From contig JAFQFH010000017.1 in NCBI GenBank assembly GCA_017398685.1, positions 1-51,749 of the forward strand: DNA of 51,749 nt, written 5' to 3'. This document shows, piece after piece, positions 4,142 to 51,749 of the stretch. Source of the DNA: Oscillospiraceae bacterium (GTDB lineage: Bacteria > Bacillota > Clostridia > Oscillospirales > Oscillospiraceae). The notes under the pieces are model-generated. The model searched no databases. It was given only the letters and a program-made list of their open reading frames with translations, and was not told the DNA's origin. Position numbers and translations under genes: made by a program. Numbering within the stretch: the stretch's first letter is position 1; each line of letters opens with the position of its first letter.

Positions 4142-6003
4142 CAACTTAGTTCCTCCCACTTTTCGTAAAGGAGCAGCAGCTCCTCATCCAGTGCGGCTTT
4201 CTCGCTGTCCAGCTCCATCAGCTTCTGATAGTCCGTAGCAAATTCCTCGGCCATGGCGTCTATCTCGGCGATCTTACTTTCAAGCTTGGCAATCTCCTTT
4301 TCAAGGCGGCTTCTGGCCCTGTCCGCATTGGGCGTTGTGGTCTTTTTGACGGCAGTTTTCTTCTGAATGTTCCGCTCGGCCTGAGAATAAACGGCCTGCC
4401 TTTCAAGCCACTGGCGGTATTCCTCATATCCGCCGCGAAAATCCGTTATGCCGTCCTTGCCCAGCGCCCATATACGGGTGGCGAATTTCTCGATGAAATA
4501 TCTGTCGTGGGAGACGAACAAAAGCGTCTGCTGATAGTCGGACAGTGCGTCCTCTATCCACTCGCGGCTTGCAATGTCCAGATGGTTTGTAGGCTCGTCG
4601 AGAATGAGGAAGTTTATCTCGCTGCCCATCAGCATGCAGAGCTTGAGCCGGCTCTTTTCACCGCCGGAGAGTGCGCCCACCGGGGTGAATACCGCATCCC
4701 CCCGAAAGCCGAAGGCGGCAAGCCTGTCCCGGGCCTCCTGAGGCTGGCAGCGGCAGTCGTAGAGCATGGTGTCCAGCGCTGAGCGGCTGTGGTCTGTGAA
4801 GCTTACTATCTGCGGCAGGTAGGCAGAGCGTACTGCGGCCCCGTGGTAGAGATAGCCCGCGTCCGGCTTTTCCTCACCGGTTATGAGCTTCAAAAGCGTG
4901 GTCTTGCCGGTGCCATTATCGCCGATGAGAGCCACCCGCTCTCCACCTTTCACAAAAAGCTCAAGGTCGGAAAAAAGCGTTCTTTCGCCAAAACCTTTGG
5001 AAAGTCCGTCGGCCACCAATACCTCGTCGCCCTCAAACTCCCGCTCACTGAACTTTACCTTCAGCTTTTTCTGCTCGGTGGGCTTTTCGCTCTGCTGCAA
5101 TCTTTCGATGCGCTTTTCCATGGAGAAGGCCCGCTTGTGCAGCTTGTCCATGCCCATGAAGGCCCATAGATGCATCTGCTCGGCAGCCCGGGTGAGCTGC
5201 TCTATCTTGGCCTGATCCCGCTCGTACTTTTTCAGCTTCTCCTCAAAACGGCGCTGCCGCTCCTGAACGTAGAAGCTGTAGTTACCGCTGTAAAGCTCGG
5301 CCTTGCCCTCTGTTATCTCAATGCAGCGCTGCACCGTCTTGTCCAGAAACCAGCGGTCGTGGCTTATTGTCAGCACTGTGCCTTTGAAGTGCAGCAGATA
5401 GTCCTCCAGCCATTCGGTTGCGTGCAGGTCAAGATGGTTTGTAGGCTCGTCCAGCAGCAGTATGTCCGTGTCCTCAAGGATGAGGCGGGCAAGGTTGACT
5501 CTTGTCTTTTCGCCGCCGGAGAGGGAGTCAAAGCTCTGCTCTCTCATGGCGGGCGGAATGTCCAGACCGTTTGCCACCCGGTTTCTGTCCACTTCCATCT
5601 CGTAGCCGCCAAGCCGCCTGAAATCCTCGCTGAGCCTGTCGTACTCGGCAAGAAGGGCGGGGGACTGGTCATGCTCCATGTCCTTTGCCAGTTTATCAAT
5701 TTTTTCGCTGAGCCTGTAAAGATGCCTGTGGGCATCCTTCAAAACGTCCTCTGTGGTGTAGTGGGGCGGGTACACGGGAATCTGGGAGATAAGCCCCAGC
5801 CGCTTTCCGGGGGCTATCATTATATCCCCCTCGTCGTAGTCTATCTCGCCCACAAGGATGCGGAAAAGGGTAGTCTTGCCGCTGCCGTTGTGGCCCAGTA
5901 TGCCTATCCTTTCACCGCTGGTGACGGAAAAGCTCAGCCCGTCCAGTATATTTTTACCCCGCTCAAAGGATTTAACCAGTGAGCTTACGGATAAGTCTAT
6001 CAT
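4141..6003 (-). CDS. ABC-F family ATPase
   Basis: A 620-residue soluble protein with two ABC domains and no membrane segments. Domain 1 has Walker A GHNGSGKTT (~residues 37-45), signature LSGGEKTR and Walker B LLLDEPTNHLD. The linker is basic and helical (~240-310, the P-site tRNA interaction motif region). Domain 2 has GDNGTGKTT, LSGGEKSR and LILDEPTNHLD. The C-terminus (~540-620) is a charged coiled coil. These are standard for ABC-F proteins (B. subtilis YdiF-like), which bind the ribosome and relieve stalling or antibiotic inhibition. Whether this member gives resistance cannot be told from sequence. The start at 6003 is chosen for the AAGGAG site and the ATGA overlap with the PBP stop; a longer in-frame extension lies inside the PBP gene. 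Confidence 0.93.
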   Translation of the reverse strand: MIDLSVSSLVKSFERGKNILDGLSFSVTSGERIGILGHNGSGKTTLFRILVGEIDYDEGDIMIAPGKRLGLISQIPVYPPHYTTEDVLKDAHRHLYRLSEKIDKLAKDMEHDQSPALLAEYDRLSEDFRRLGGYEMEVDRNRVANGLDIPPAMREQSFDSLSGGEKTRVNLARLILEDTDILLLDEPTNHLDLHATEWLEDYLLHFKGTVLTISHDRWFLDKTVQRCIEITEGKAELYSGNYSFYVQERQRRFEEKLKKYERDQAKIEQLTRAAEQMHLWAFMGMDKLHKRAFSMEKRIERLQQSEKPTEQKKLKVKFSEREFEGDEVLVADGLSKGFGERTLFSDLELFVKGGERVALIGDNGTGKTTLLKLITGEEKPDAGYLYHGAAVRSAYLPQIVSFTDHSRSALDTMLYDCRCQPQEARDRLAAFGFRGDAVFTPVGALSGGEKSRLKLCMLMGSEINFLILDEPTNHLDIASREWIEDALSDYQQTLLFVSHDRYFIEKFATRIWALGKDGITDFRGGYEEYRQWLERQAVYSQAERNIQKKTAVKKTTTPNADRARSRLEKEIAKLESKIAEIDAMAEEFATDYQKLMELDSEKAALDEELLLLYEKWEELS

Positions 6004-7472
6004 TCGTCTGCTCCTTCGGAGTTTGCGATGTACTCCTGCAAAATTCTGCTTGTGGTGTTGCCTGCCACGTAAAGGCCGCCGCCGCCCCGCTCCACCATGG
6101 TAACAAAGGCGTAGGGGTGTTCCTCGTCGTCCAGAAAGCCCACAAACCATGCATGGGTGTCGCCGTCGCCAATTTCGGCGGTGCCGGTCTTGGCGCACAT
6201 ATTAAGTCCGGGGAAAGTGTCCTCGCCGCCGTAGCTGTAGGAGACGTTGTAGCTCATCATCTCCCTGAGCTTTTTGGCGGTGCCGGCCTCCATGAAGCGC
6301 TCTGCCCTGGGGGCCTTGCCGTCATCTATCATCTTCGGCTCCAGAAGCACCCCGTCATTGGCAATGGCGCAGACAAAGCGCAGCATGGCATAGGGGCATA
6401 CAAGGTCAGTGGACTGACCTATGCCCGACCAGCCCAGCTCCGGGTCACCCACAAATTCGGTGGGATAGCTGCCTGCCACTGTTGGAATGCCGTCAAGGCT
6501 CTGCTTATCCAGAAAACCGTACTGTCTGACATATTTTACCATGGTGTCCTGACCCAGCTTCACTGCCATCTGGGCAAAGGCCACGTTGCAGGAATTGGCC
6601 ATGGCCTTTTCAAAGGTCTGGTTATAGTGGGAGTGCATGCACACAATGGGCACACCCGCAATGTAATATTCATCCTCACAGTAATATCGCTTGTCACTGA
6701 GCTGCTCGGTGTTCTCTATTGTGGCGGCGGCGGTGACGAGCTTGAATACCGAGCCGGGGGTGAAGCTTGCAGAGAGGCAGCGGTTGATGTAAGCGCCTTC
6801 CGCCGGCGGGGTCTCAGAGTCAGCAGGGTCTACCGTGGGCAGGGAGATCATACCCAGAAGCTCACCCGTGCGATAATTGCACACCATCATTGCGCTGTTG
6901 CAAAAGCGGGGTCTGTCCCAGCTGTTTGCTATCAGCACATCCTTTTCGCTCTCTGCGATAACGTTCCCCTCTGCGTCCACCGCCACGCGCCACTGGTGCA
7001 CGGTGTGGGGCTCAAAGGGCAGCTCCGTCAGGCTTTCGCCCTCTTCAAGCGGTATTTCCAGTACGGAGAGGTGCTTGTACATGATGTTGTTGAGCGTTGA
7101 ATCTATATTCAGCCGCATCTGGCTGTGCTTTTCCTGGGTAGTGCCGGTGATGATGTCAAAGCCCATGGCCTCATCCCAATATTCTGCCAGAAAGCCGTTG
7201 CCGGTGCGGTTCCAGTAGTCGCCGGTAACGTGGTAGTTTGCCTTCCTTGTTGTGGCGTCGTCGGCAAAGCGGTTTTCAAAGCCGCTGAAATAGGCCAGCA
7301 TCACGCCGTTTCTGTCCAGAAGCTGTCCGGTGGAGCCGGAATTGGAGCGGGAGAAATAAAGGGCCCAGTCCCTGCCGTCGTCCACGTAGCGCAGCACGTA
7401 AACAATCATGCCGCAGATAACGAGAAAGGCGATAAGAAGCAGGGAGACGGAGCGGTTTCTGATCTTTTTCAC
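6000..7472 (-). CDS. Class B penicillin-binding protein (transpeptidase)
   Basis: A 490-residue bitopic protein with a short cytoplasmic tail, one membrane helix (~residues 9-29) and a compact extracytoplasmic part. The transpeptidase motifs are all intact: SVFK (Ser241, Lys244), SCN (294-296) and KTGT (428-431). The length and the short N-terminal region resemble the small PbpA/SpoVD-like class B enzymes that pair with a SEDS polymerase. Here the partner is the gene just upstream. The start is GTG at 7472, overlapping the upstream stop by four bases (GTGA), with GAGGAGG in front. It should cross-link peptidoglycan strands made by the adjacent RodA/FtsW fusion; whether it acts in elongation, division or sporulation is not determinable here. 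Confidence 0.92.
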   Translation of the reverse strand: MKKIRNRSVSLLLIAFLVICGMIVYVLRYVDDGRDWALYFSRSNSGSTGQLLDRNGVMLAYFSGFENRFADDATTRKANYHVTGDYWNRTGNGFLAEYWDEAMGFDIITGTTQEKHSQMRLNIDSTLNNIMYKHLSVLEIPLEEGESLTELPFEPHTVHQWRVAVDAEGNVIAESEKDVLIANSWDRPRFCNSAMMVCNYRTGELLGMISLPTVDPADSETPPAEGAYINRCLSASFTPGSVFKLVTAAATIENTEQLSDKRYYCEDEYYIAGVPIVCMHSHYNQTFEKAMANSCNVAFAQMAVKLGQDTMVKYVRQYGFLDKQSLDGIPTVAGSYPTEFVGDPELGWSGIGQSTDLVCPYAMLRFVCAIANDGVLLEPKMIDDGKAPRAERFMEAGTAKKLREMMSYNVSYSYGGEDTFPGLNMCAKTGTAEIGDGDTHAWFVGFLDDEEHPYAFVTMVERGGGGLYVAGNTTSRILQEYIANSEGADE

Positions 7473-9187
7473 TCTATGTCCTCCTCGTCAAACTCGTCCA
7501 GCTCATCCTCGTATATACCCGCATACTCAGCCGTTTTCACGGCAAAGCTGGCATTCTTCCGGTTGTCCGCGCTCTTTACAAAGGCCATCAGCATCCAGCA
7601 GGAGAGAAGGGAGGAGCCACCCCGCGACACAAAGGGGAAGGTGACACCGGTAAAGGGCAGAATATCCAGCGAACCGAATACATTCAGGGAAAGCTGCACC
7701 AGAAGCATACTCATGGCAGTGCAGGCTGCAATGGCGTAGTAGGCCGAGCGGGCGTGCTGAGCGCTTCTCACGGCGAAAAAGGCAAGGGCAAGTACGGCAA
7801 GCACCATGCACATGCCCACTATCATCCCCAGATCCTCGCTCACAAGGGCGAAAACCATGTCGGTGTTGGCAGCGAAGATATCCTTCAGCCAGCCTTGGCC
7901 TGCACCCTTGCCGAAAAGCCCGCCGGAAGCGGCGGCTGACATGGCGCGGGTCTGCTGGTAGCCCTTGTCGTAGATATCCTCCCACACATGCCCCCATATG
8001 GCAAAGCGCTGGGCAATGTAGGGCTTTATGGTCACGGCCAGCACGCTTGCAAGTCCGGCGCCGGACACGGCCAGCAGAACAGTTGCTATGGAGCCGGAGC
8101 GCATGAAGGATATAACAAGAAAGCTTACAAAGAATATAAGGGCCGTACCAAAGTCGCCGATAAGGGCCATAGCCACAACGCAGATGGCCGAAAAACCGAT
8201 GAAAGAGAAAAGCTCATTGGTGCGGTAGAGCCTGTCCAGCGTGGAGGCACCCGCAAAAATATAAAATACCTTTACAAATTCCGAAGGCTGGAAGGAGTAT
8301 CCACCGAACTCCAGCCAGTTTCTTGCGCCGAATACGGCTTCACTGGTCAGAACGTTCACGCCCAGAAGAAGAATTGCCAGTATCCCCATAGGCACACGCA
8401 AGGAAGAAGTGCGTTTGAGGCTTCTGAACCACCAGCCGTTGAGAAGAAACAGTGCCACGCCCACAATGGTCAGCAAAAGCTGCTTGAACATATCCTCCGG
8501 TGTGGAGGTAGCAGCCACGGACATACCAAGGGCGGTGAGATAGAAAGCCAGCGTTTCCACCTCAAAGCCGGAGCGGTTTATAAAGCGCATCAGGTGATAA
8601 CAAAGCCACTCAAGGCAGATAAGCCCCAGAAAAGCAAGGCAGATAGGCTTGACAAATTCGCTCTCCGCCGTGCACATATGCTCCACCATCAGAAAAAGCT
8701 CGAAAACCGTGAGGTATACAAGGGTTATAGAAGGCTCCACTGCAAGCCCGGCCTGTGTTCTCTGGGCCTCCAGAAGGCTTCTGTGATAGCGGTTTATGTC
8801 CAGAAATCTCAGGAAATTGCCAGCCAGATTGATGGAGTCACCGGAGTGTATCCGTGTGCCGAGAGGCCCCACCTTCATGCCGTTTACCCATACGCCGCCC
8901 TTGGAGAAAATGTCAAAGATGCGCCATTCCCCCTTGTCCGAGCGCACAAGCACCGCGTGCACCCGGCTCATGGAGCGGTTATCTATCCGTATGTCGGCGG
9001 ATAAGGAGCGGCCTATGAGGTTTTCCCAGTGGTATACGGGAATGGCCTCGTCGCCCCGGTATACGTATGACCATATCTCCGCCTCGTAGCGCTCAGAGAG
9101 CATGGAGCGGATGCACCGCACGATTATAAGCACGCTCATGATTATCACCGCGTATTTGGACGTGGTCATGGCGTAAAAAATCAGCAT
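7469..9187 (-). CDS. FHA domain-RodA/FtsW fusion (SEDS glycosyltransferase)
   Basis: A 572-residue protein. One membrane helix (residues ~10-27) precedes a cytoplasmic FHA domain (~50-130) with the phosphothreonine-binding signature residues Gly59-Arg60-Ser61, Ser74-Arg75-x-His77 and Asn102-Gly103. After residue ~150 follows a polytopic RodA/FtsW/SpoVE region with the family motif QPSEFVK in the loop after GGYSF and the RGGSS segment near the end. SEDS proteins polymerise lipid II; the FHA part should bind a Thr-phosphorylated protein. No kinase gene is in the window. ATG 9187 is 12-14 nt from AGGAGGGG, slightly far, so a CTG two codons upstream is an alternative start. It is first in the operon with the class B PBP, ABC-F and YdcF-like genes. 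Confidence 0.9.
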   Translation of the reverse strand: MLIFYAMTTSKYAVIIMSVLIIVRCIRSMLSERYEAEIWSYVYRGDEAIPVYHWENLIGRSLSADIRIDNRSMSRVHAVLVRSDKGEWRIFDIFSKGGVWVNGMKVGPLGTRIHSGDSINLAGNFLRFLDINRYHRSLLEAQRTQAGLAVEPSITLVYLTVFELFLMVEHMCTAESEFVKPICLAFLGLICLEWLCYHLMRFINRSGFEVETLAFYLTALGMSVAATSTPEDMFKQLLLTIVGVALFLLNGWWFRSLKRTSSLRVPMGILAILLLGVNVLTSEAVFGARNWLEFGGYSFQPSEFVKVFYIFAGASTLDRLYRTNELFSFIGFSAICVVAMALIGDFGTALIFFVSFLVISFMRSGSIATVLLAVSGAGLASVLAVTIKPYIAQRFAIWGHVWEDIYDKGYQQTRAMSAAASGGLFGKGAGQGWLKDIFAANTDMVFALVSEDLGMIVGMCMVLAVLALAFFAVRSAQHARSAYYAIAACTAMSMLLVQLSLNVFGSLDILPFTGVTFPFVSRGGSSLLSCWMLMAFVKSADNRKNASFAVKTAEYAGIYEDELDEFDEEDIE

Positions 9188-44812: not shown

Positions 44813-46384
44813 TCACAAAGAAAAATTCTTGAATTCATCGAAGGAAACGTTGAATTCTATATCCAGATTGTAGTCGCGGTATACATAGATGGCTTTAACG
44901 AAGTGGGAAATAAACATTTTCTTGGCATCGAAGCTCAGCATATCATAAACATCTGCCCAGCTCTTGAGTCTTTTGTATTCCTCCCGCTCTGCTGACATAC
45001 CGCTTTCCTTTTCATGGAGCTGCCGTTTTGCCTCTTCAAAATTATCGGTAAGGATTCTTATCTGTTCTTTGGCTTCTTCCACAAGCCCACTTATCATGTC
45101 TTCCGGTAAACGGCTCTGACCCCGGATGATTTTTATTATCTCAGCTTGGTAGTCTGAGAGCTCCTTCTGCTTTTCACTGAGCTGGGCATAAGCAATGTTA
45201 TACCTTGCTTTGGCAATATCCAGAGCTTTTTCATGCTGTGCTGCAATTATGCTGTCACAGGGATTTTCTCTTATCTTTTCAAGCTGCATATGGACGACCT
45301 TATCTATTATCCCGTCGAGCTTAGTCACTCCATAACCTGACTGCCCTTCACATTCTCCCGGATGCCGGACATTGTAATGGCACTGGTAGCGCATGCGCGT
45401 CTCTTTTTCTACAGTCCCGTCCCTTCTGGTTCGGTTTCTGCCGCTGGTCGTGAGGGTCAGTCTGTTGCGACAGTGCCCGCAATAAATTTTCCCGGTAAGA
45501 AGGGCCTTGCTTTTCATATTTATCGGTGTATTACTGCGTTGCTGCTTTCTGCCCTGCATAATACTCTGTGCTCTCTCAAACAGCTCCGGCTCTATTATCT
45601 GAAGTGCCGGAATTGCTTTGGACTGTACGTCTCCGTTTTTTATTACGCCTATATAGATTGGGTTTTTCAGCATACGAATTATTGAGGTATTGGGAAAGTT
45701 CCTTCCGTCTTCCCTCATTATTTTATTTTCGGAAAGGAAGCGGCACAGTCTCTGCGCTCCGTAACCCTCATTCACATACTTGTTGAATATGAGTCTTATT
45801 ATCTCCGCAGCGTCTTCGTCAATAACAAGGTCGCTTACCTCTCGGCTTCTCTTATTAACGCGCCCTTGCTTGACTGCTTTATATCCGTATGGCACAGATC
45901 CACCGGTAAAAAGGCCTTCCTCGGTAAGCTGCTCCATGCGGGTCTTCACTCGCACAGAGGTTTTTATGCTCTCGCCGGAGGCCTGCCAATATCTGATGTA
46001 ATTGAGCAGCTTGTCCACATGGCTGTCAAAGCGCTGCTGGCCTTCAACGGCGCTCCATACCTCGACTCCGTTCTTTACAAACCACTCCACGATAAAAGGT
46101 GTCTCATCATCACGTCGGCCCAGACGGTCAAACATATATACAAGGAGAATATCAAAATTACCTTTCACGGCATCTCCCTGTATTTCCTGCACAGCATCCC
46201 GCTCTTTGGCCGAGAGTTTGAAGCCCGAAACGCCCTTTTCATATACTTCTTTGACAATTCGCCATCCGTGATGGCTGTTCACAAACTCACGGCAGAACTG
46301 CTTCTGCATGGGTATATCGTCTTTTTCCACCTGTCCTACAGTGGACACTCTGTATAAACAACAGACTCTTTTATTTTCTTCCAT
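44813..46384 (-). CDS. Large serine recombinase
   Basis: A 523-residue site-specific recombinase. The N-terminal resolvase domain has CCLYRVSTVGQ with the catalytic Ser14, then VYMFDRLGRRDDE with the active-site Arg motif. The Recombinase domain (~150-270) holds PYGYK and NPIYIGVI. A zinc ribbon starts at KIYCGHCRNRL (~310) and ends with YQCHYNVRHPGEC; then a long coiled coil (~390-480) typical of phage/ICE integrases of the TnpX/Int family. ATG 46384 follows AAAGGTG; a GTG three codons earlier is possible. It catalyses integration or excision through a 2-bp staggered cut with a Ser-DNA bond. Its 3' end faces the tRNA-Ala locus. Confidence 0.95.
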   Translation of the reverse strand: MEENKRVCCLYRVSTVGQVEKDDIPMQKQFCREFVNSHHGWRIVKEVYEKGVSGFKLSAKERDAVQEIQGDAVKGNFDILLVYMFDRLGRRDDETPFIVEWFVKNGVEVWSAVEGQQRFDSHVDKLLNYIRYWQASGESIKTSVRVKTRMEQLTEEGLFTGGSVPYGYKAVKQGRVNKRSREVSDLVIDEDAAEIIRLIFNKYVNEGYGAQRLCRFLSENKIMREDGRNFPNTSIIRMLKNPIYIGVIKNGDVQSKAIPALQIIEPELFERAQSIMQGRKQQRSNTPINMKSKALLTGKIYCGHCRNRLTLTTSGRNRTRRDGTVEKETRMRYQCHYNVRHPGECEGQSGYGVTKLDGIIDKVVHMQLEKIRENPCDSIIAAQHEKALDIAKARYNIAYAQLSEKQKELSDYQAEIIKIIRGQSRLPEDMISGLVEEAKEQIRILTDNFEEAKRQLHEKESGMSAEREEYKRLKSWADVYDMLSFDAKKMFISHFVKAIYVYRDYNLDIEFNVSFDEFKNFSL

Positions 46385-46486
46385 AGCACTCACCTTTTAT
46401 ACAAAAAGTCAGCCTATTCTCTATTCAATTATCAAGGTGCACTTTTGTACTTCTATTATCTCATATTTACATCTATTTGCAAATTT

Positions 46487-48379: not shown

Positions 48380-48709
48380 TTATCCGATTGCGCTGAAATC
48401 AATCATGTCTATGATGCCGTTTATCTCATCTACGCTAAGTCCCTTAAGTTGGCTAAACTGTAAGGTCACAAAAGAGTTTTCCAAATACACATAGGCAAAC
48501 ATATACTTTCCGTTGTGTAGGACGGTTAGTTCCGTCCCGTCGGGAGTGGTATGTGTGTAGGTGGACATAGCGCTGACATCCTCTATTTCACCGAATATTT
48601 CATATTCACTGGAAAGGGTGCCGTAGGGCGAGTTGTAAAGATAGCAGCTTGTTCCTGCGTTGCTGGTGTCATCAGTGGAATAAAAACTGATTGGTATATT
48701 TACATTCCC
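48380..48709 (-). pseudogene. C-terminal gene remnant in frame with the BlaR1-like stop codon
   Basis: An open frame of 109 codons runs directly from the codon after the TAA of the sensor gene (48710-48712) to its own TAG/TAA-type end at 48380, in the same frame. It reads NVNIPISFYSTDDTSNAGTS, later YEIFGEIEDVSA and TTPDGTELTVLHNGKYMFAY, ending IIDMIDFSAIG, which looks like genuine protein and resembles the C-terminal part of a secreted or sensor domain. Only its last 62 codons have an internal ATG (48568), without a ribosome site. It is probably the tail of an older, longer gene left after the PBP-like domain was joined to the M56 part. Family not recognised with certainty. Confidence 0.55.
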
Positions 48710-50953
48710 TTAATCAGCAAGAGCTTTATATGCTGCGAATACGTCTTTTGCAATTTGTCCTGCCGGCCCATTTTCTTCCGCTGTTATTGTGACAACCGCT
48801 ACAGCTATTTGTGGATTTTCATAAGGGGCATATCCGATAAAAATGTGTTCATTCAACAATGAATTGTCGTTTGTTCCAGAGATTTTACCCGATATACGCC
48901 AGTTGCCGAGTGAATCTGTGGAAGATGAAAAATCATTATTTAAATACATGCCTTCACTTTCATAGCAGCTTAGATACATGCCATGTTGTATAGCTTCCCA
49001 CTCTTCCGGAGCAACGCTTTCAATATGACTTAGAAGCACAGGACTATGACCATAAATTAAATTTCCTTCACTGTCAGTTACCTCATGGATTATTGATGCA
49101 GAATAGCGTTGTCCATCGTTTGCGATTGTTGCACAATACTGCGCAAGCTGTATCGGAGTAAATGAACAAAAGCTACGTCCTACAGCAACCTCAAGGGTAT
49201 GACCTATGTTCCAGCTTGCTCCATAGCTTTCAGCTGTCTCTCGATTAGGCATAAGACCATTGCTTGACGGAAGTTCAATTCCTGTTGGCACTCCTAGACC
49301 CATCGAGTGAGCATATCTTTCGATAGCATCTATTCCACAGTCATTTCCCAAAGCATAAAAATAGTAATCACAGCTATCTCTCAACGCAGTTTCCATGTTT
49401 TCATCGGAATGCGATAAGCCTCCGTGCCGATGAATCCAACACTCCGGTGCAACTCCATCGTCAATATACCTGTCAAAAACACCATTGCATGTAATTAAGT
49501 CATCAGCTGTTATTAGCTTTTCACCAGATGCAGCAACTGCGGTGCATGGCAAGAAAACGTGATTAGGCGTAAAACTAATGGTAAGGGGGTTCACTGCTTC
49601 TCCTGTAGCAACAATAGCCAAAGGTGCCCCTGTTTTAACATCCAGTGCCACAAGACAACCGGAAAATCCTGATGCTCCTAAATTAGCAAGATTGTCTTGG
49701 AGTATCTTTTGAGCTTGCTGCTGAAACTCAAGGTCAATAGTAAGACTTATGGTACTTCCGGCATTTAAATATTCTTCAAATGTGCTCGCCGCAGAAGAAT
49801 ACAACGGGAAATTTTCTTCATTTAAGACATTTCCGTTGCGGTCAAGAATAGCGCTACTCAGACGACCAGGAAGATCTTTATTTGAATCACTCTGCCCGGA
49901 ACCATCTTTTTCTTCCAATTCGGAGTTGGAGTCTGTAGTGGCAATTGTTTCGGCAGATGACGCTGTGTACTCAGGCTGACTTGCATCAGCCCCAGTAAAC
50001 GTACATCCGGCAACGATAATAGCAAAAAGAATAAATGCTGCCATATTGCTTAAAAGCATATATGGGCGCTTGGCAACATATTCAACACGCTCTTTCAACG
50101 CTTTTCCTTTCGAACTAAGAGGCGTGACAGCGCAGAGAAGCGGCTCCTGGGATATACAACTAAGATTGATGAGAGTTTCTCCGTATTTTAAACGTTCTTC
50201 TGACATCATGGAGTCTATCACTTTTTGATCACAACTGAGTTCTCCGTCCTGCTTTGAAAGTTTCGCCGCATACCATACGAGAGGGTTATACCAGTGCAAT
50301 GCTATGGCAAGACTGCGAAGTATGGCCCATATATGATCACCCTGTCTGTAATGAGCCCGCTCGTGCATAAGCACATATTTTTCCTGAGAAGTATCAATAT
50401 CTGCGCTTAAATAAATTGCTGGCGGTAACAGCCCAAACAGGCAAGGGCTTTCTATTAACTCACTACTGTATACACGCAGTTCCATAAACGTACCTGTTTC
50501 AGTCCGAGAGCGCCTTAGTTTTGATGCAAAATGAATGTTTGAAAATAGAACGAAAACAATGGTGCATAATGCACCCAGTACATACACGAGAAGAAGATAG
50601 TTTGTGCGTGATTTTTCAGTAGCGGTATGTGTTCCTGTGGCTCTGTCTGTTGGGTGAAGCTCATTTTCATTTTCTGAGTTTGCATTGAAAGGCTCAAAAG
50701 TAGTTTCTTCGCCAGTCAAAAATGGAGTAATTATTACCTCATTTGCACTAGAGCTATTTGGGAAAGCATTTGATGGAACAACATTTAAAACACTTAACGA
50801 ACTATTGCCGATATTAAAAGGAATAAGCAGCCTGATAAGTACGATAAGCCACAGACCATATCGCAACCCCGGGCTAATACGATTTTTGAATAATGTCCTT
50901 AGAGCGATAATGGACACAATTAGTACGGTCGAAGAAAGAATCCAACTAGTCAT
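48710..50953 (-). CDS. blaR1: BlaR1/MecR1-like M56 sensor protease with degenerate PBP2-like domain
   Basis: A 747-residue membrane protein. Residues 1-~320 form the M56 protease with several membrane helices, the zinc motif HERAH (His197, Glu198, His201) and the third ligand in ELSCD (Glu238). After the last helix (~303-317, ending AGC) comes an extracellular linker and a penicillin-binding-protein domain (~360-747) of the class B (PBP2) type: the SCDYYFYALGN and GLGVPTGIELP stretches are PBP2-like. But the SxxK motif is replaced by PNHVFLPC (His465, Leu468 at the Ser and Lys places) and the KTG box reads KISGT. So it cannot be acylated in the normal way. AGGAGGG precedes ATG 50953; it overlaps blaI by 8 nt. 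Confidence 0.85.
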   Translation of the reverse strand: MTSWILSSTVLIVSIIALRTLFKNRISPGLRYGLWLIVLIRLLIPFNIGNSSLSVLNVVPSNAFPNSSSANEVIITPFLTGEETTFEPFNANSENENELHPTDRATGTHTATEKSRTNYLLLVYVLGALCTIVFVLFSNIHFASKLRRSRTETGTFMELRVYSSELIESPCLFGLLPPAIYLSADIDTSQEKYVLMHERAHYRQGDHIWAILRSLAIALHWYNPLVWYAAKLSKQDGELSCDQKVIDSMMSEERLKYGETLINLSCISQEPLLCAVTPLSSKGKALKERVEYVAKRPYMLLSNMAAFILFAIIVAGCTFTGADASQPEYTASSAETIATTDSNSELEEKDGSGQSDSNKDLPGRLSSAILDRNGNVLNEENFPLYSSAASTFEEYLNAGSTISLTIDLEFQQQAQKILQDNLANLGASGFSGCLVALDVKTGAPLAIVATGEAVNPLTISFTPNHVFLPCTAVAASGEKLITADDLITCNGVFDRYIDDGVAPECWIHRHGGLSHSDENMETALRDSCDYYFYALGNDCGIDAIERYAHSMGLGVPTGIELPSSNGLMPNRETAESYGASWNIGHTLEVAVGRSFCSFTPIQLAQYCATIANDGQRYSASIIHEVTDSEGNLIYGHSPVLLSHIESVAPEEWEAIQHGMYLSCYESEGMYLNNDFSSSTDSLGNWRISGKISGTNDNSLLNEHIFIGYAPYENPQIAVAVVTITAEENGPAGQIAKDVFAAYKALAD

Positions 50954-51335
50954 TTTTTCCCTCCTCAGCACGGCGAAGTATGGCGTGCAGCTCGTCTATG
51001 TCTCTTTGACTCAGATTCTGTTTCTCAGTGAGGGCGTTTATAAGGAGACTTACGCTTCCTTTGTAAACACGATCTATAAAACTTCTTGTTTCTCTTTGTA
51101 CTGCATCCTCCCTTTTGACAAAAGGAGAATATGTAAGAACCGCTCCGCTTTCATCGCAACCTATAAGGCCTTTTTCCGTCATGCGTCTGAGCATTGTTAA
51201 TGTGGTAGACCGGGTCCAGCCGATATGTTCTGCCATGTACTCCACAGTTTCTCTTCCGGTACGCGGGCTTTTTTCCCACAGGCATTCCAAAAGTTTCCAC
51301 TCAGTTTCTGTAAGATCAAGATAATCTTTGCTCAT
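50946..51335 (-). CDS. blaI: BlaI/MecI/CopY-family repressor
   Basis: A 129-residue winged-helix repressor. LTETEWKLLECLWEKSPRTGRETVEYM and WTRSTTLTMLRRMTEKGLI form the DNA-binding part; residues ~80-129 are the helical dimer arm, where the BlaR1-type protease cleaves in staphylococci. The partner sensor follows with an 8-nt overlap. Two matching operators lie in its promoter. In the classic system the repressor is cut when the sensor binds beta-lactam, releasing a resistance gene; no beta-lactamase or resistance PBP gene is in the window, so the output is unknown. Confidence 0.92.
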   Translation of the reverse strand: MSKDYLDLTETEWKLLECLWEKSPRTGRETVEYMAEHIGWTRSTTLTMLRRMTEKGLIGCDESGAVLTYSPFVKREDAVQRETRSFIDRVYKGSVSLLINALTEKQNLSQRDIDELHAILRRAEEGKND

Positions 51336-51348
51336 GAGCTCCCTCCTT

Positions 51349-51395
51349 GTCTACATTGTAAACAGAATATATCATATCTTGTTTACAATGTCAAC
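51349..51395 (-). promoter_or_regulatory. Promoter of blaI-blaR1 with two BlaI-type operators
   Basis: On the minus strand TTGACA (51389-51394), 17-nt spacer, TATATT (51366-51371). Two copies of GTTTACAATGT..AC lie in opposite orientation at 51349-51363 and 51381-51395, 32 bp apart (three helical turns). One covers the -35, the other the start region. TACAnnTGTA-like cores match BlaI/MecI operators. Confidence 0.85.
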
Positions 51396-51541: not shown

Positions 51542-51749
51542 TCACTCTTTATATTCATTTCCAAACGGATAATACCGCAGAACATGCTCAACATACTGCA
51601 TGTCACCATAGCTTTCCCAGCCCATCTGCTCTGCCATATACTCGGAAAACTCCATGGCGCTGAGCTGAGAGTAGCCGCCATATTTGGCTCTGGCCCATGA
51701 GATATAGCCAGTGCCGAAGTTATAGCCCTGCAGAGCAAGAGAAATGCAC
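51542..51749 (-). CDS. CwlT-like lysozyme family protein, C-terminal part (cut by window end)
   Basis: The last 68 residues of a protein whose start lies outside the window. It reads LALQGYNFGTGYISWA, then YGGYSQLSAMEFSEYMAEQM and YGDMQYVEHVLRYYP before the stop at 51542. The YNFGTGYI, EFS and QYVEHVLRYY marks match the C-terminal part of the lysozyme-like (slt/CwlT, Tn916 Orf14-type) peptidoglycan hydrolase of conjugative elements. Such enzymes open the wall for the transfer apparatus. Its presence says that conjugation genes probably continue to the right. The 146 bp between it and the BlaI operators hold no gene that I can see. Confidence 0.8.
   Translation of the reverse strand, partial: CISLALQGYNFGTGYISWARAKYGGYSQLSAMEFSEYMAEQMGWESYGDMQYVEHVLRYYPFGNEYKE

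Follow-up and report, generated by a model that had tools for sequence, protein, structure and literature searches.

BlaR1 signalling is the textbook example of sensing in which the beta-lactam is captured covalently. Excerpts of a study of BlaR1 (PMC9834060) describe a loop, EL1, that occupies the sensor groove and is displaced upon acylation, and report that the signal peptidase SpsB cleaves the linker that follows the last helix of Staphylococcus aureus BlaR1, at Gly331, with shedding of the sensor. Signals derived from the cell wall and signalling free of acylation both have precedents, because in Bacillus licheniformis BlaI is the target of a wall-derived dipeptide in the cytoplasm (excerpts of PMC3305447) and overproduced PbpP S301A activates sigma-P in Bacillus thuringiensis, indicating some signalling without acylation (excerpts of PMC8092216).

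The locus described here lies in a 51,749-nucleotide stretch (the window), which is the whole of contig C10 of an Oscillospiraceae genome. An open reading frame of 747 aa on the minus strand (48710..50953) encodes a fusion of an M56 protease with a PBP2-like domain. The Peptidase_M56 domain (residues 4-293; 50075..50944, minus strand) scores 175.5 bits against PF05569, with a cut-off of 31, and keeps the HExxH motif (HERAH, 197-201) and the downstream Glu (E238 of ELSCD); alignment to 8exp and 8exs confirms the gluzincin site, so that this part is intact, as the initial annotation of the DNA had stated. The fusion falls below the cut-off of the curated, generic NCBI model of BlaR1, NF000326 (122.2 vs 400). 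Residues 432-738 match the PBP transpeptidase family of Pfam, and the whole PBP2-like, catalytically dead domain, comprising a DRNG strand and the transpeptidase domain, extends over residues 366-742 (48728..49858, minus strand). Its fold is that of a class B PBP2 transpeptidase, and domains of this type nest within the PBP2 tree, in keeping with the class first proposed for it. A class D-like sensor is disfavoured, the solved structures with sequence similarity to the C-terminal half being PBPs; no class D chain occurs among the 50 matches listed, an absence that is uninformative either way. The dimer/pedestal domain PF03717, which makes many partner contacts in PBP2, is absent from the fusion, in which only two Pfam families were found at E 0.001.

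The catalytic Ser and Lys are lost, as had been noticed from the sequence at the outset. The SxxK-equivalent is H465-V-F-L468, within PNHVFL (49550..49561), the SxN-equivalent is S527-C-D529 (49367..49375) and the KTG-equivalent is K690-I-S692 (48878..48886), all on the minus strand. A protein search in which 7993 candidates were scored listed the best 120 of 1519 matches, among which are 28 further M56-PBP fusions, 5 unfused relatives and the cluster of the query itself; these 34, together with L003, L088 (from the same genome as the fusion) and L136, form a set of 37 derived domains. A second search (7996 candidates scored, 120 of 1442 matches listed) added 55 derived rows, 2 of them fusions, giving 92 rows (31 fusions and 61 stand-alone proteins), all distinct and some near-identical, for example L088 and P0159. 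The set of 37 was compared with 88 catalytic PBP2s, namely 79 of 80 loci (80 kept of 212) and 9 sequences from the same genome and genus, the misframed row C_G_L125 having been left out of the motif counts (89 to 88 catalytic rows).

By alignment columns, the Ser of SxxK is found in 6/37 derived domains and the Lys in 0/37, compared with 88/88 catalytic PBP2s for each, and the six domains that keep the Ser carry Tyr or Met at the Lys position. The SxN Ser is kept in 32/37 and the Asn in 1/37 (88/88 catalytic rows each), and the Lys, Thr and Gly of KTG in 10/37, 2/37 and 0/37 (88/88, 86/88 and 88/88). The wider set of 92 repeats this picture for the SxxK Lys (0/92), SxxK Ser (6/92), SxN Asn (2/92) and the KTG Lys, Thr and Gly (11/92, 2/92 and 3/92), and a second set of PBP2s reads PGSTFKPC in 35/35. 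Columns conserved in PBP2 that are lost in the derived rows include 465, 468, 529, 593 and 690-692, and many scaffold columns are kept, such as P463, P469, C528, G552-G554 and G558; the derived-specific columns 371-372 are an artefact of PBP2 trimming and columns 671-674 look misaligned. Lys468 is replaced by Leu in 71 of the 92 rows, Tyr in 13, Met in 6 and Ala and Phe in 1 each, and Thr466 by Leu in 91/92. Taken together, these replacements look more like a hydrophobic floor than like decay at random.

With nucleophile and general base gone, and with them the KTG Thr and Gly, there is a strong inference that the dead domain cannot be acylated as BlaR1 is. The protein could still be a beta-lactam sensor if it bound the drug non-covalently, as the initial annotation had allowed, or used another nucleophile; its BlaR1-like architecture and pairing with BlaI would fit, and S527 and C528 are kept in 32/37 and 37/37 derived rows. 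Both residues, however, are equally kept in catalytic PBP2s (88/88 each) and so are not new nucleophiles; pocket residues, including any alternative Ser, were judged by alignment columns only. Non-covalent binding is likewise disfavoured because the usual beta-lactam contacts are lost along with the nucleophile in most or all relatives (Lys468 in 37/37, Asn529 in 36/37, Thr691 in 35/37 and Gly692 in 37/37). No beta-lactamase was recognised, by eye and with some Pfam searches, among the ORFs of at least 80 aa between 44 and 51.7 kb. We therefore regard beta-lactam sensing of either kind as very unlikely.

The suspicion that the fusion is an isolated decayed copy among homologues that keep SxxK is ruled out by the single clade that the derived domains form and by the motif loss shared by the 37 and the 92 derived rows. 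At least 30 further M56-PBP fusions and at least 61 stand-alone relatives, all with open frames, have the same kind of losses, so the query fusion is not an isolated case. A functionless domain retained merely through its fusion to M56 would be expected to evolve fast, and the other fusions are indeed only 36-54% identical to the query among the matches listed. The number of open frames (at least 31 fusions and at least 61 stand-alone proteins), many invariant columns, the specific hydrophobic replacements and a dN/dS of about 0.11 in one stand-alone pair (see below) nevertheless largely refute decay without function, which we consider extremely improbable. Since the dead domain is conserved family-wide, what it senses is probably not penicillin chemistry but something else.

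In a quick tree of PBP domains, which still contained the faulty outlier C_G_L125, all 37 derived domains group in a single clade (SH-aLRT 100) nested inside the catalytic PBP2s of related bacteria. The node uniting this clade with 16 PBP2s has an SH-aLRT of 88, and these 16 include L084 from the same genome, with the motifs PGSTFKLC, SCN and GKTGT. Fused and unfused proteins are intermixed: the query's clade has L088 and L136 as its sister group (SH-aLRT 98), and the lipoprotein relatives fall within the other main derived clade. A first tree of the M56 halves united 28 of the 29 fusions (SH-aLRT 98; P0029 outside); several of its M56 rows sat on very long branches, in some cases probably because of a wrong ORF. 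A cleaner tree omitted the locus rows and comprised 31 fusions and 86 other M56 proteins; built freely and quickly, it implies three label changes, two of them forced by starred branches, and constraining all 31 fusions to a single group raises the log likelihood by 15 units over the free tree (p-AU 0.716). A single fusion event is compatible with these data in the sense that such a tree is not rejected.

The second dead PBP2-like protein of the genome, L088 (contig C62, 1198-2409), is unfused and has a signal-peptide-like start; it adjoins a symporter gene and flavoprotein-like genes (named by eye). Its orthologue L136, also stand-alone, has the upstream symporter gene in common and shares 297/403 residues with it, with a dN of 0.166 and a dS of 1.50. 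Judged by these substitutions, the comparison shows purifying selection on the pair at a dN/dS of about 0.11, a rough figure because dS is near saturation and more than four times that of the neighbouring symporter, and one that comes from stand-alone genes rather than the fusion. Over 110 symporter codons dN is 0 and dS 0.34, so that the pseudo-PBP gene is the faster-diverging of the two, silent sites included. Stand-alone copies make up 61 of the 92 rows and show that the dead domain does something without M56, a point against the sensor model set out below. A fusion and a stand-alone lipoprotein may lie on the same contigs in the pairs P0003/P0125 and P0008/P0128, for which the longest contig is 25085 for both members and 5550 for both members, respectively.

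The pairing with BlaI proposed for the fusion is borne out. A gene for a BlaI/MecI-type repressor of 129 aa (50946..51335, minus strand; PF03965, 99.2 bits with a cut-off of 22.6) overlaps the start of the fusion by the 8 nt of its 3' end (ATGACTAG) on the same strand, and the two are therefore probably translated together. Upstream of blaI lies a promoter-like TTGACA-17-TATATT (51366..51394, minus strand) that agrees at 11/12 positions and is the best of 10 matches in the region; the shuffled region averages 7.9 matches, so a match as such is not evidence. Two operator-like dyads accompany it, GTTTACAATGTCAAC overlapping the -35 element (51381..51395) and GTCTACATTGTAAAC between the -10 element and the ribosome-binding site (51349..51363), and they are the sole exact GTTTACAATGTNNAC sites in the assembly of 2,098,227 bases. 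When up to two mismatches are allowed on both strands, GTTTACAATGTNNAC has 75 matches, compared with 13 for the reversed control. The position of these putative dyads around the blaI promoter and their uniqueness as exact sites suggest that BlaI represses its own operon. No regulated gene beyond the blaI-fusion operon was found, and the contig ends just upstream. One-mismatch sites in contigs C14, C34 and C68 were rejected as operator targets, being inside long ORFs; another, at C59:3842-3856 (L143 position 1501), lies upstream of a signal-peptidase-like ORF (by eye) and is a weak lead for a possible second BlaI target.

We believe that the locus encodes a regulatory pair of BlaI and an M56 protein, with a pseudoenzyme as its sensor that derives from PBP2, the elongation transpeptidase, of the same bacterial group, is not acylatable and signals through M56 to BlaI, and give this reading a probability of roughly 0.62. 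The joining of M56 to a PBP2-derived domain, and the pairing of a conserved non-catalytic domain with BlaI, are supported by the sequence comparisons; the later steps we infer by analogy with BlaR1, namely ligand binding in the groove, displacement of a plug, activation of M56 and cleavage of BlaI. A PBP2 transpeptidase domain without the dimer/pedestal domain would have lost its catalytic motifs and joined an M56 protease, possibly once, and its old active-site groove would most likely have been reused for non-covalent docking of a wall peptide or a wall-synthesis partner. In the query's clade a loop motif may sit in this groove as a tethered plug; the ligand would displace the plug and activate M56, and cleavage of BlaI would then free the blaI promoter, with its two dyads, from repression. 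Candidate ligands are muropeptides, lipid II and protein partners.

The loop motif is GEETTFEPF (residues 81-89; 50687..50713, minus strand), in the predicted extracellular loop between membrane helices 2 and 3. The pattern G-x(3-5)-F-x-P-[YF], defined after viewing the alignment (an earlier, narrower pattern matched 13/14), occurs in this loop in 14/14 fusions of the query's clade, 0/17 other fusions and 0/86 other M56 proteins. It may dock in the old groove in the manner of EL1 in BlaR1, at least in the query's clade; its absence from 17/31 fusions counts against the plug model, as does the low confidence of this loop in the predicted structure (residues 59-112 under pLDDT 50).

Instead of wall peptides, the dead domain could bind wall-synthesis proteins such as RodA, MreC or the real PBP2 as a decoy or adaptor that reports their state. 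Descent from PBP2 itself speaks for this, and excerpts of published work indicate that a dead class B PBP can retain a structural role (PBP2B of Bacillus subtilis, PMC5656894) and that PbpP S301A, when overproduced, still activates sigma-P (PMC8092216). The missing PF03717 dimer/pedestal domain speaks against it, and we consider the adaptor role somewhat unlikely.

The last predicted membrane helix (residues 302-317; 50003..50050, minus strand) ends in a lipobox-like VAGC317-TFTG, with a charged and then a hydrophobic stretch and the Cys at its end, as in a lipobox, although its position is internal rather than N-terminal. A Cys of this kind closes the last membrane helix in 31/31 fusions, and the lipobox Cys of the lipoprotein relatives falls in the same alignment column as C317. 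The protein could thus be made as one chain and then split, with signal peptidase II cutting before C317 to release the dead domain as a free lipoprotein and M56 signalling for some other reason. The conserved motif, the charged stretch before the helix and the alignment of the lipoprotein Cys with C317 agree with such a split, as does the cut that SpsB makes in S. aureus BlaR1 just past its last helix (excerpts of PMC9834060); type II processing at C317 could do what SpsB does in BlaR1. Against it, GC/AC-type motifs close the helix in all 115 listed M56 proteins (29 fusions including the own cluster, and 86 others), and the 86 others differ in their C-terminal parts. The same motif is found in 22 of the 24 loci scored (of 25) in the family, including L002, and in 7 of the 27 scored (of 29) in the phylum, the M56 lists used for these counts favouring close relatives. 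The conserved TFTG, moreover, goes beyond the needs of a lipobox, and the family locus L118 keeps TFTG with Trp in place of Cys, so the motif may instead serve the junction of helix and sensor. A free lipoprotein unconnected with M56 signalling is therefore unlikely in our judgement.

A broader possibility, which we hold only tentatively and think rather improbable, is that a wide group of M56 sensor-proteases matures via signal peptidase II at the internal lipobox into a membrane protease and a lipid-anchored sensor, the latter being a dead PBP2 in the query's branch that reports on wall synthesis without chemistry. If so, fusion and stand-alone lipoprotein would be two routes to one lipid-anchored pseudo-PBP. 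The genome has two BlaI-type genes, on C10 and C34, and none beside L088. Beside the one on C34 is L002/L134 (5379-8105), the single further M56 gene that was found there, whose product has a repetitive extracellular part and LLAGC closing its last helix; no other M56 gene turned up in this genome.

The surroundings of the operon hint at mobility. To the left of the fusion are a serine recombinase (44813-46393, minus strand; PF00239/PF07508), a Spo0A_C-type protein and an HTH protein, and at the right-hand contig end is a Lysozyme_like fragment of 68 codons (51545-51748, minus strand). Directly after the fusion stop, in the same frame, follows an open stretch of 109 codons (48383-48709, minus strand) whose residues 6-108 share 68% identity with an ORF in contig C29 of the same genome and which is matched in 43/102 genomes of the genus. 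It corresponds to a C-terminal fragment of an anti-sigma-like protein (name by eye), whose intact gene in G427 overlaps a sigma-factor-like gene (both named by eye). Because it matches the C-terminus of this G427 protein, an old M56 sensor that was lost is out as its source, and it looks like a truncated neighbour gene. The recombinase, the Lysozyme_like fragment and the truncated remnant may mark an integrated mobile element with blaI and the fusion as its cargo, and such an element would also explain the rarity of the pair in relatives. Elsewhere in the window (6000-9187, minus strand), a PBP with a transpeptidase domain adjoins an FtsW/RodA/SpoVE protein bearing an N-terminal FHA domain, an addition that is unusual to our knowledge.

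Among the matches listed for 400 genomes of the family (two candidates scored per genome), a full-length match to the fusion occurs in its own genome only. Matches above 490 bits in 102 genus genomes are confined to its own genome, G479 and G419; the latter two are stand-alone, the G479 protein being identical to that of L003, and the next matches (at most 364 bits) were taken for PBP2 and not individually checked. At the level of the order, with up to four candidates scored in each of 394 genomes, only its own genome passed E 1e-100, and no relatives were among 33 stretches of viral contigs that matched a pattern. Neither fusions of M56 with PBP2, nor PBP sensors that are catalytically dead, nor a lipobox in M56 proteins were the subject of any title or abstract start among the open-licence PubMed Central papers listed.

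A conserved branch that lacks the chemistry and keeps protease and repressor would demonstrate that binding alone can drive the M56 switch, and would separate occupancy of the groove by a loop such as EL1 from acylation. The system also offers a route to a natural wall signal that the BlaR/PBP fold can read, and the lipobox-like Cys near the site at which signal peptidase cuts BlaR1 makes release of the sensor directly testable.

Like BlaR1 and MecR1 as excerpted (PMC9834060), the fusion has the gluzincin site of M56, a long loop predicted between helices 2 and 3, a C-terminal extracellular domain of the transpeptidase family and a BlaI/MecI partner. Unlike their class D-like sensor, its sensor derives from a class B PBP2 and lacks SxxK as well as the SxN Asn and the last two residues (TG) of KTG. 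Other listed M56 proteins (P0036-P0121) are 35-44% identical to it over the M56 part and have the GC/AC motif in common, but their C-terminal parts differ and most are without a Pfam family. With the class B PBP2s (MrdA) of related bacteria the derived domains share fold and descent, in contrast to which they lack PF03717 and the catalytic motifs and are fused to M56 or secreted alone. PbpP, the sigma-P beta-lactam sensor of B. thuringiensis, resembles the fusion in that a PBP serves as the sensor; according to the excerpts (PMC8092216) it differs in needing its active-site serine when expressed from the native promoter, where the fusion has His465 instead, and in acting via RsiP and not BlaI.
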